Part shown: piece by piece, positions 54,874-58,184 of the stretch
Layout: every line of letters starts with the position of its first letter
Numbering within the stretch: the stretch's first letter is position 1
Source of the DNA: Thalassospiraceae bacterium LMO-JJ14
GTDB taxonomy: Bacteria > Pseudomonadota > Alphaproteobacteria > Rhodospirillales > Casp-alpha2
Length of the DNA: 64,000 nucleotides
Assembly: GCA_021555105.2 (NCBI GenBank)
Contig: CP134604.1
Span: 2,480,001 to 2,544,000, forward strand
Reading direction: 5' to 3'
Notes under the pieces: model-generated
What the model saw: the letters and a program-made list of their open reading frames with translations, nothing else
Databases searched by the model: none
What the model was told of the DNA's origin: nothing
Program-made: the position numbers and the translations under genes

Positions 54874-54921
54874 AACTAATGGTGTCGTTGCAGGCATAAA
54901 TTGACAGGACTCTGGAAGGCA

Positions 54922-56661
54922 ATGGCAGACAACCGGGGTAAACCGGCAGACGATGATACGAAACGGTCTTCGCCATCGAGCGCTGCGAAAACGCTTGATG
55001 ATTTGACCGTACTGAACGATCTCGGCAAGCCTGCGGATGCGGATGCTATTCAGCAGGAACATATCGCCGAATACAATCCGGATGCCGGCAGCGAAAGCGG
55101 CTATGACAGCATTCACTTGGGCTCTTATCTGACCGACAATGATGTAAACGCAGGACTTGTTCCCGGTGATGCGCCAACTAATCCGGACGAACCCCGTACT
55201 GCCCCGGGCCATGTCCCGGAGGGCATAGCGCACAACGTTCCCAGGAATATCATCGAGAGATATCTGCCGAATGCCGATGAGGTTGCCGTCAGCAACGAAA
55301 GCGGGGGCTATGAATTGGTGGCGGATGAACAGGCCCCCAACCTTGAAGAGGCCGACGGCACTTTTGCAACACCATCATTCACCGGTAAGGCTTCGGACCT
55401 GACACCTGAGCCCGATGATCTGTCGCACCTTGCAGGATCGTTGGAGCCGTCTTCTCAGCTCGAAGCAGAAGTCGAAGAAGAGCTGCTGACCGAGCCGACG
55501 TCGCCGACATCGCCAACCGAGCCGACATCGCCGACCGAGCCGACATCGCCGACCGAGCCGACAGAACCGACATCGCCGACATCGCCGACCGAGCCGACAT
55601 CGCCGACCGAGCCGACATCGCCGACAGAACCGACATCGCCGACCGAGCCGACATCGCCGACCGAGCCGACATCGCCGACCGAGCCGACAGAACCGACAGA
55701 ACCGACATCACCGACCGAGCCGACATCGCCGACAGAACCGACATACCCGACAGAACCGAGCGCGCCGACGTCACCGGAAGAAGTTTCGCCCCCCGAACAA
55801 CCAGGCAGCACTTCCGTCTACGAAGGAAGTGACGGCGACGACCGCCTTCGCACCTCGAAAAACGATGATGTCGTGCTCGGCTATGCGGGTGATGACTCGA
55901 TCGATGCCCGCCAGGGCAGCGACTGGATCGATGCCGGCGACGGGTTTGATGACGTCACGGCCGGCAAGGGAGACGATGTAGTGATCGCTGGTGCCGGCGA
56001 TGATGTGGTCAGCGGCGACGACGGGTTCGACCAGCTTTTCGGTGGCGAAGGTGCAGACGAGATTGACGGCGGGAAAGGCGACGATCTGATCTCGGGCGGC
56101 GCCGGTGACGATTTTTTAACAGGCGGAAGCGGCGACAATACGATGTGGGGCGGGCTTGGCGACGATGTTCTGGAAGGCGGCAACGATCAGGATGTGCTGA
56201 TGGGCGGCGAAGGTGCGGACCAAATTGCAGGGGGGGGCGATAACGACTTGATCTGGGGCGATGCCGGTGCCGACAATTTGCAGGGCGATGCGGGCAACGA
56301 CGAGATTTATGGCGGCGCGGGCGATGACTTGATTTCCGGCGGCACCGGAGATGACGTACTGATGGGCGGGGCAGGGAACGACGACATATCCGGCGACGCC
56401 GGAAATGACTTGTTTATCTTCGGTTTCGATAGCGGCAGCGACACCGTATCGGGGGGAACGGGATGGTCCGATACCATTCAGCTGGAGGGCATTAATGTCG
56501 GCCCGGATGAAGGCTTGTGGACCCTTGAAGTGGAAAACGGCGTCGATTGGAATTACACCGAGGCGGGGATCGAATTCGATGGCGACGCAAGTGGACGCAT
56601 AGAACTCGCCGACGGTTCCGAATTGATCTTCGAGGACATCAACCGGATCGATTACGGCTAG
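54922..56661 (+). CDS. RTX (GGxGxD repeat) protein with a Pro-Thr repeat stalk
   Basis: 579 residues. Residues 1-190 are acidic and low in complexity. About 30 three-residue units of Glu/Ser-Pro-Thr follow (near residues 191-280). From about residue 305 to 500 there are glycine/aspartate nonapeptides such as GGAGDDFLT and GGAGNDDIS, which bind Ca2+ and fold into beta-rolls outside the cell. No signal peptide is visible, as expected for type I secretion via an uncleaved C-terminal signal; the last 70 residues are the candidate signal. No type I transporter gene is nearby. The ATG at 54922 has GGAAGG upstream. Adhesin or matrix protein is a likely role. Confidence 0.85.
   Translation: MADNRGKPADDDTKRSSPSSAAKTLDDLTVLNDLGKPADADAIQQEHIAEYNPDAGSESGYDSIHLGSYLTDNDVNAGLVPGDAPTNPDEPRTAPGHVPEGIAHNVPRNIIERYLPNADEVAVSNESGGYELVADEQAPNLEEADGTFATPSFTGKASDLTPEPDDLSHLAGSLEPSSQLEAEVEEELLTEPTSPTSPTEPTSPTEPTSPTEPTEPTSPTSPTEPTSPTEPTSPTEPTSPTEPTSPTEPTSPTEPTEPTEPTSPTEPTSPTEPTYPTEPSAPTSPEEVSPPEQPGSTSVYEGSDGDDRLRTSKNDDVVLGYAGDDSIDARQGSDWIDAGDGFDDVTAGKGDDVVIAGAGDDVVSGDDGFDQLFGGEGADEIDGGKGDDLISGGAGDDFLTGGSGDNTMWGGLGDDVLEGGNDQDVLMGGEGADQIAGGGDNDLIWGDAGADNLQGDAGNDEIYGGAGDDLISGGTGDDVLMGGAGNDDISGDAGNDLFIFGFDSGSDTVSGGTGWSDTIQLEGINVGPDEGLWTLEVENGVDWNYTEAGIEFDGDASGRIELADGSELIFEDINRIDYG
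55492..55752 (+). repeat. 9-base tandem repeat encoding (E/S)PT
   Basis: About 29 nine-base units (gag ccg aca or tcg ccg ac(a/c) type) lie in tandem, with 18-base EPTSPT super-units. Changes in copy number by multiples of nine keep the frame, so length may vary between strains. The opposite strand is also open in two frames because of the repeat; these are not genes. Confidence 0.9.
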
Positions 56662-56682: not shown

Positions 56683-57207
56683 TCATTCGGACCTGCGGTG
56701 CCACGTCAGATAATATCGCTGCAAGAACTGATATACATCATCCAGCGACAGGACGACCGTGGCCTCATAGTTCGTATCCAGAAACGGCAAGCGGATTTTA
56801 TCGACCTGTGTATTTGTCCCGTTCTCCAACACAACCTGTACGCTGGATTTAAATGGCTTTAGATGCGTCAACGCCTCGCTCAGTTCTTCGCGCACAAGAT
56901 CGTTATATATCGCCGGCTTAAGTTCGGACAGCGGCTTGCCGGTGTAGTTGTACTTCATCATTTCCGTTCTGCCGCTACCCCAAAACAAAAACCGGAAATC
57001 GTTCAAGGACGGGTCCCAGATCATGACATTGGCATAGGGAATAAGCTCGGACGGGAATTGCAGCAAATGATCGATCACCCAGACCGGCGCATCCTCATCT
57101 TGTTTTTTCAGGCGCTGCCAGACCTCGATGGATGAACGGAATATATCCGAGATCTCCGTTTCGGGAGTGATCTCTTCGCTGTGTTTGCTGGCTTCAAGAA
57201 TCCGCAT
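56683..57207 (-). CDS. PAS-domain protein (PAS_5 type)
   Basis: 174 residues. LIPYANVMIWDPSLNDFRFLFWGSGRTEMMKYNYTGKPLSEL matches the alphaproteobacterial PAS_5 pattern. The second half has a PAS-like end, KIRLPFLDTNYEATVVLSLDDVYQ. No output domain is attached, so it is a stand-alone sensor or adaptor. It is convergent with the RTX gene. The upstream region holds a terminator and a CRP-type site, described separately. Confidence 0.75.
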   Translation of the reverse strand: MRILEASKHSEEITPETEISDIFRSSIEVWQRLKKQDEDAPVWVIDHLLQFPSELIPYANVMIWDPSLNDFRFLFWGSGRTEMMKYNYTGKPLSELKPAIYNDLVREELSEALTHLKPFKSSVQVVLENGTNTQVDKIRLPFLDTNYEATVVLSLDDVYQFLQRYYLTWHRRSE

Positions 57208-57324: not shown

Positions 57325-57362
57325 CCAAAAAGAGAATGGCCGGACCTTGGGAGGTCCGGCCA
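57325..57362 (-). terminator. rho-independent terminator (minus strand)
   Basis: TGGCCGGACCT and AGGTCCGGCCA form a perfect eleven-base stem with a four-base loop (57337-57362). On the minus strand the stem is followed by TTCTCTTTTT. It may end transcripts from the operon 58184-57499 or from the CRP-type promoter at 57422-57464. Confidence 0.8.
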
Positions 57363-57415
57363 GAGTTTGTGCTCTTGAGGGAAGGGAGGATTCTGTGAAG
57401 AAATCCATCCTTACA
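57325..57415 (-). ncRNA. candidate small RNA, about 90 nt
   Basis: A predicted start at 57415 and the terminator stem at 57337-57362 would bound a transcript of about 90 bases on the minus strand with no protein-coding frame of note. It contains a small hairpin GGATT ... AATCC and the CU-rich unpaired TCCTCCCTTCCC, typical of alphaproteobacterial sRNAs that mask ribosome sites. This is inference from sequence; expression is not shown. It could instead be a terminated leader of the PAS gene. Confidence 0.4.
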
Positions 57416-57421
57416 ATCGAA

Positions 57422-57464
57422 ACTATGACAGTTCGGTAATCATGCGCCTGTGACACACATCACA
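57422..57464 (-). promoter_or_regulatory. CRP-type site and class II promoter
   Basis: TGTGACACACATCACA at 57449-57464 is a perfect TGTGA-N6-TCACA palindrome. A -10-like CATAGT on the minus strand (57427-57422) puts the start at about 57415, so the palindrome is centred at -41.5, the classical class II activator position. No sigma-70 -35 is present, consistent with activator dependence. Confidence 0.55.
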
Positions 57465-57498: not shown

Positions 57499-57840
57499 TT
57501 AAGAACCGAGCAGATGGACGGGCGGTCCCGTATCTTCATCCCTGAGTCCGCATTCGCGTTCAAGCTCATCCAGCAACGCCGGAATATCCTCGTGTTTAGT
57601 CCCCAGATTGAAACGCCCACCGGGTGAAAACCGTACCGTCGGCCCCTTCGTGCACTGGGCCAGGCACTTGATGCGCTCGACCTGCACGTTGATTTTTCGC
57701 GCGGCGACACCGGCTTCGATGGCATCGGCAAGCGCTATCGATCCGCGTTGTGCACATGACGGCTGATCGCCATGAAAGCGCCGGTTGATGCAGATAAGAA
57801 CGGATTTGATGACGGGCGTGTCGGTATCGTGTTCGGTCAT
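57499..57840 (-). CDS. thioredoxin-like [2Fe-2S] ferredoxin-domain protein
   Basis: 113 residues. SVLICINRRFHGDQPSCAQRG and RIKCLAQCTKGPTV give a C-x(11)-C ... C-x3-C pattern, characteristic of the thioredoxin-fold [2Fe-2S] proteins related to the NuoE family. The partner is unknown; an electron donor or sensor are possibilities. The start at 57840 follows the upstream stop by 20 bases, forming a two-gene operon. Confidence 0.75.
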   Translation of the reverse strand: MTEHDTDTPVIKSVLICINRRFHGDQPSCAQRGSIALADAIEAGVAARKINVQVERIKCLAQCTKGPTVRFSPGGRFNLGTKHEDIPALLDELERECGLRDEDTGPPVHLLGS

Positions 57841-57860
57841 GAAAAGCTGACAGCCGTTGT

Positions 57861-58184
57861 TCAGTCTTCGTCGGCCAGCATCGGCGCATCGGCGGCGACC
57901 GTTCTGCCGCTTTCCGTCAGGCGGCACACCAGCCAGTCAGGCTTGATCGGGTTGTTGAACCAGGGCTCGGCCCAGCCGTGGCGGATGCAACTGCGGACCG
58001 TCTGTTCACTGACTTTCTGGCCGATGCGGTCAAACAGCGGCAACTTGCCGCCTGGCTGCTCCAGACCGCGCTGCAACCACCTGAGCTGCGTTTCGTTCGG
58101 TTGTTGCGCACGCTTGGCATTTTCCTTACCGGCCCCCGCTTCGGGGTCGACGGAAACCGCCGCGCTGTTGTCCGCGTTACTCAT
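57861..58184 (-). CDS. hypothetical winged-helix-like protein
   Basis: 107 residues. A flexible N terminus is followed by NETQLRWLQRGLEQPGGKLPLFDRIGQKVSEQTVRSCIRHGWAEPWF and CRLTESGRTV, the pattern of a small winged helix ending in the common LTExGR strand. It might bind DNA or proteins. It is upstream of the [2Fe-2S] protein in the same operon, suggesting a redox-linked regulator pair. Family not recognised. Confidence 0.6.
   Translation of the reverse strand: MSNADNSAAVSVDPEAGAGKENAKRAQQPNETQLRWLQRGLEQPGGKLPLFDRIGQKVSEQTVRSCIRHGWAEPWFNNPIKPDWLVCRLTESGRTVAADAPMLADED

Follow-up and report, generated by a model that had tools for sequence, protein, structure and literature searches.

A predicted small RNA gene with a conserved CRP-type promoter in Thalassospiraceae bacterium LMO-JJ14 and other Rhodospirillales

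The window, which is the whole stretch of 64,000 nt analysed here, carries on its minus strand a CRP-type operator, an extended -10 element and a predicted terminated RNA, flanked by a protein-coding gene and an ORF. The upstream neighbour, which lies outside the RNA, encodes 142 amino acids (57499..57927, minus strand) with weak similarity to 2Fe–2S ferredoxins (23.5 bits with the NCBIfam ferredoxin model, under its cut-off), and it ends 84 nt before the predicted transcription start. The operator TGTGATGTGTGTCACA (57449..57464, minus strand; centre 57456.5) is followed by 18 nt, by TGTCATAGT and by a further 6 nt that lead to the predicted +1 at 57415, a position inferred from that of the -10 element. 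The extended -10, TGtCATAGT (57422..57430, minus strand), consists of TG at 57430-57429 and CATAGT at 57427-57422, and has no accompanying -35 element. The predicted sRNA of 91 nt (57325..57415, minus strand), which is supported by the promoter register together with the terminator, the fold, the homologues and covariation, comprises a 5' hairpin, GGAUUU...GAAUCC (57388..57406), a conserved core, CUCCCUUCCCUCAAGAGCACAAACU (57364..57388), and an intrinsic terminator with an 11-bp stem-loop (57337..57362) followed by UUCUCUUUUU and a U-rich tail reaching to about 57325. Within the core, which is presumed to be an anti-Shine–Dalgarno seed, UUCCCUCAAGAGC is the part found order-wide. The downstream neighbour, an ORF of 174 aa (56683..57207, minus strand) for which a profile search found no family match, begins about 118 nt past the terminator. 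An RTX-type calcium-binding protein is encoded on the plus strand at 54901-56661, with 10 stretches matched by PF00353 and a long PTEPTSPTEP repeat tract. A preliminary description had placed the palindrome, the CATAGT -10 and the terminator on the minus strand, and a check of the sequence located all three where it had put them; its centring of the palindrome at -41.5 was reproduced with the +1 at 57415, and its terminated RNA of about 90 nt agrees with the 91 nt predicted here.

The operator is the sole perfect palindrome of its kind in the window, where 0.08 would be expected and where 8 of 100 shuffles contain at least one. The 3.89-Mb genome holds four such palindromes, including the site studied, and a single occurrence of the reversed control pattern. 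A chance origin of the palindrome is excluded above all by its conservation among homologues. Among 81 unique family members with at least 170 nt of upstream sequence, which were picked by the RNA core rather than by the promoter and which are akin to each other and hence not independent, 75 match the palindrome at 9 or 10 of its 10 positions within 170 nt upstream (59 perfectly and 16 with one mismatch). About 3.6% of random 170-nt windows from the same loci reach this level, a background that is inflated because some of these windows contain the site itself.

A logo of the 75 homologues aligned on the palindrome shows G at -14 (72%), A at -11 (85%) and T at -7 (91%), with little conservation between -30 and -17 and no -35 signal other than the operator; a sigma-70 scan found no promoter at the locus. 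As read from the sequence, the predicted extended -10 is exactly in the register that a class II promoter requires. Clades differ in how far the palindrome lies from the core: 64-80 nt separate the two in most, and 101-148 nt in certain genomes from families f19, f4 and f5, which may have an extended 5' part or use another promoter. At five loci (L103, L105, L108, L109 and L113), the nearest good palindrome lies 129-148 nt upstream of the core, which suggests that the 5' part is longer there or that the promoter is a different one. The opposite extreme is found in G107 (L118 and L119) and G055 (L121), in which the 5' hairpin is absent and the palindrome lies only 38-41 nt before the core, such that the core forms the predicted 5' end of the RNA and the -41.5 geometry is retained despite the altered RNA. 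This argues that the essential portion of the molecule is the core and not the 5' hairpin. G107 carries at least three copies of this minimal version of the sRNA.

The 91-nt RNA folds with a z-score of -3.6 relative to dinucleotide shuffles, and a slightly shorter form reaches -5.2. In the minimum free energy fold the presumed seed is partly paired with the 5' end of the RNA, which counts against the base-pairing model; the family consensus joins an outer GGA to UCC of the core. An alignment of 57 members shows compensatory double changes in all four inner pairs of the 5' hairpin and covariation in all nine counted pairs of the terminator. Overall, 92.8% of the cells of this alignment can pair and double changes occur in 14 of 16 pairs, giving a covariation score of 0.511; shuffles give 0.183 and slid partners no more than 0.109. 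The alignment was fitted to the structure under test, which favours that structure, but the margin is large. The CU-rich stretch, which the preliminary description had singled out as an unpaired segment, shows the highest conservation within the RNA, and 14 columns of the core are invariant among 37 sequences.

Conservation in relatives, on which the preliminary description had made its proposal depend, is extensive: the palindrome, its register, the 5' hairpin, the CU-rich core and the terminator are kept across the order. A BLASTN search with the 180-nt region matched 26 of 61 genomes, and nearly all of the relatives that align over the core carry an upstream TGTGA-N6-TCACA, the 5' hairpin, CTCCCTTCCCTCAAGAGCACAAACT and a GGCCGG-type terminator. 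An exact scan of named genomes for the core returned 34 loci, nearly all of them in Rhodospirillales MAGs, including Defluviicoccus. Applied to 317 genomes from 115 genera of the order, a covariance model built from 37 sequences matched 135 of the genomes and 70 of the genera at E ≤ 1e-3, although the weakest of the 135 genomes are partly represented by suhB-like RNAs, as in G120, where the match sits on an RF00519 match. Divergent members retain UUCCCUCAAGAGCA and the terminator. The corresponding class-wide search matched 19 of 385 genomes; matches outside the order do not, as a rule, contain the core and were rejected as members, being chance or suhB-like, so that the family seems confined for the most part to the order. 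One class-wide match, L140, has TTCCCTCAAGAGCA ahead of its terminator and no CRP site in the stretch examined. A search of plasmids for the sRNA found nothing. The family is apparently uncatalogued: comparison of the window and of 20 divergent loci with Rfam 15 at gathering thresholds gave no relevant match, and no paper with the core sequence or the RNA was found in the literature outside supplementary tables, where the RNA may stand as an unnamed RNA-seq entry. The sole Rfam sRNA given in the M. gryphiswaldense transcriptome paper is BjrC80.

Four proteins of the CRP/FNR type exceed the Pfam cut-off in the genome, and they appear to comprise one Fe–S FNR type, one DNR-like protein, one whose type is unassigned and one CRP-like protein (L159). 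The last carries the cAMP-pocket motif FGELSALDGQPRSASV (FGEL...PRSASV) and the helix TTRETVARVL, which resembles SRETVGR of E. coli CRP and agrees with the residues through which CRP reads TGTGA. Among NCBIfam models the protein scores best with the CRP model PRK11753, at 82.7 bits and thus below the equivalog cut-off of 266, and its relatives of solved structure include CRPs. With the palindrome and its register kept across the order, and with a CRP-like protein of matching recognition helix encoded in the genome, the earlier reading of the site as a class II CRP promoter is upheld. The genome also contains an hfq gene.

A transcribed sRNA gene under CRP-type control, real and conserved, can be regarded as nearly certain, and the full model, that of an autonomous, base-pairing sRNA gene activated by cAMP–CRP, is assigned a probability of about 0.78. 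According to this model, cAMP-bound CRP would bind the conserved palindrome at -41.5 and recruit RNA polymerase to the extended -10 in the manner of class II promoters without a -35 element, leading to the production of a 91-nt RNA that would end at the intrinsic terminator. The RNA would then act in trans with Hfq, and its C-rich core, CUCCCUUCCCUCAAGAGCA, may pair with G-rich ribosome-binding sites and repress their translation. CyaR and other CRP-activated sRNAs of enterobacteria are Hfq-type RNAs of about 90 nt that are activated by cAMP–CRP and have a C-rich anti-Shine–Dalgarno segment and a U-tailed terminator. The predicted RNA resembles CyaR in size, in its proposed activation by CRP, in its C-rich anti-Shine–Dalgarno segment and in its U-tailed terminator, but no sequence relation was detected, and it is alphaproteobacterial, with another core and another context. 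Membership of the Rfam CyaR family was discarded, as the Rfam search of the locus gave no CyaR match.

The core contains CUCCCUUCCC, which is complementary to a strong Shine–Dalgarno sequence, and its best-supported target in the genus would be phaR, encoding the polyhydroxybutyrate regulator (identified by TIGR01848), whose ribosome-binding site GGGAAGGGAG is a perfect 10-nt complement of the core. The pattern GGGARGGGAG(N3-10)ATG has one exact occurrence in the organism's own genome, at phaR, and the phaR complement is also present, with diverged flanks, in G001, G002 and G005, so that each of the four congeners with a known copy of the RNA has it; it is absent in the congeners without a detected copy (G004 and G007) and in other genera. 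The predicted phaR duplex (-25.7 kcal/mol) is better than that of every one of the organism's 391 sampled genes (mean -10.7, sd 3.5), which were drawn from a 400-kb sample plus the window (about 464 kb), but this rank is no independent test because phaR was chosen as the best match. Nor can phaR account for the conservation of the core, since its complement is confined to genus g1 whereas the core is nearly invariant order-wide. Across 30 RNA-carrying genomes, GGGARGGGAG(N3-10)ATG has 52 occurrences, of which two lie antisense to the RNA itself, compared with 7 for the reversed pattern, an enrichment that is expected for any Shine–Dalgarno-like pattern. Other matches at ribosome-binding sites (pdh, glcD and nuoN) recur only in pairs of genomes; pyruvate dehydrogenase was dismissed as a conserved target, as it is shared only by G025 and G081 and is missing from other members of the genus of G081. 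A search for the complement CTCTTGAGGG near start codons across the order, in which not all hits were translated, revealed no evident recurrent gene, and several of the matches are the antisense strand of the sRNA itself.

That both flanking genes lie on the same strand as the RNA, and that many loci, 25 of them in one cluster, have a homologue of the upstream gene, could suggest that the terminator and leader belong to the neighbours, either as the 3' end of the ferredoxin-like gene or as a CRP-driven leader of the downstream ORF. This is very improbable, as neighbouring genes differ between clades while the promoter and RNA remain, with the same promoter–RNA–terminator cassette beside other genes; in addition, five genomes of one family (L098, L099, L100, L101 and L102) carry tandem sRNA copies about 140-175 nt apart, each with its own CRP palindrome. 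It is less credible still that the RNA encodes a peptide. An ORF in the window does start at an ATG at +8, would specify the 28-aa peptide MDFFTESSLPSRAQTLAGPPKVRPFSFW and is kept within the genus, but it lacks a well-placed Shine–Dalgarno sequence and is interrupted by early stops in several clades. No reading frame is conserved among 64 members (an ATG is absent in 24, a stop precedes the core in 9 and the rest are in mixed phases), and the conservation of the core is of the nucleotide-level kind. The near invariance of UUCCCUCAAGAGC, which is longer than a usual seed, together with the failure to find a common target order-wide, would fit a core that serves as a protein-binding or sponge site, by which the RNA would titrate away a protein or a different RNA, rather than as a base-pairing seed. 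The complementarity of the C-rich segment to ribosome-binding sites, the presence of Hfq and the typical sRNA layout with a U-tailed terminator render this unlikely.

A further question concerns the origin of the family, and its answer is compatible with the base-pairing sRNA model. The sole Rfam near-match of interest is suhB/MmgR (RF00519), and the predicted RNA shares with the MmgR of the order, CUUGGACGUUUCCUCCCUAAACUUGAGCC, a layout of 5' hairpin, CCUCCCU, AAACU and GC-rich terminator; weak covariance-model matches in the organism's own genome also coincide with RF00519 matches. These layouts are similar enough for a distant paralogy to be possible. Membership of RF00519 itself was rejected, since the locus scores 16.4 bits against a gathering threshold of 41 and is missing from the genome-wide list of RF00519 matches. 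MmgR exceeds the threshold in 153 of 314 genomes of the order, and the two RNAs occupy separate loci in the same genomes (3452081 and 723609 in G013). UUCCCUCAAGAGC is missing from MmgR, and the promoters differ: the order's MmgR copies carry the PhaR-box-like TTGCACTGCAGCAAA, whereas the present locus lacks a PhaR-box promoter and has a CRP site instead. Descent of the sRNA from a diverged MmgR/suhB (alpha-r8) relative that exchanged its promoter is thus rather doubtful. Two other loci bear on the same group of RNAs. A probable MmgR/suhB orthologue at G000:C1:3475569-3475640 (L282, minus strand) has the PhaR-box-like TTGTGCATTGCAGCAACG upstream and scores 36.6 bits, just under the Rfam cut-off. 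A second CRP-type sRNA candidate, at G000:C1:1813398-1813472 (L283, minus strand), has a CRP-like site, AGTGACCCCCGTCACT, matching at 8 of 10 positions, with TATGTT in the class II register, followed by a 5' hairpin, UUCUCUCCCUG / CUCUCCCU and a strong terminator (fold z-score of -4.2). It is a weak RF00519 match, at 33.5 bits, and is similar to the studied sRNA in its CRP-type layout, but the CCCUCAAGAGC core is absent.

The likeness to MmgR/suhB raises a possible link to polyhydroxybutyrate control. MmgR is a PHB-granule sRNA of Sinorhizobium that lowers phasin levels and is repressed by PhaR/AniA (PMC8401924, PMC12542648); this makes the link of the present sRNA to phaR attractive, but speculative. 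MmgR is under the control of NtrC and PhaR/AniA (PMC8401924, PMC12542648), in contrast to the CRP site of the present sRNA. Direct control of phaR by the sRNA within the genus is put forward tentatively and at less than even odds, because the gene was selected for having the best match and the support for it comes from one genus. Under this hypothesis, carbon or energy limitation, signalled by cAMP, would lower PhaR and thereby alter the control of polyhydroxybutyrate granules. A wider scenario, in which the family arose beside MmgR, acquired a CRP promoter, ties cAMP signalling to carbon storage and represses phaR directly in the genus, thus forming a CRP–sRNA–PhaR–PHB circuit, is entertained only with low confidence.

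The predicted RNA places a uniform class II CRP promoter on an sRNA family of the Rhodospirillales, including marine MAGs, Defluviicoccus and others, a group in which little is known of sRNAs. The family would offer a direct handle on cAMP–CRP regulation beyond the gammaproteobacteria, and a testable link to the control of polyhydroxybutyrate.
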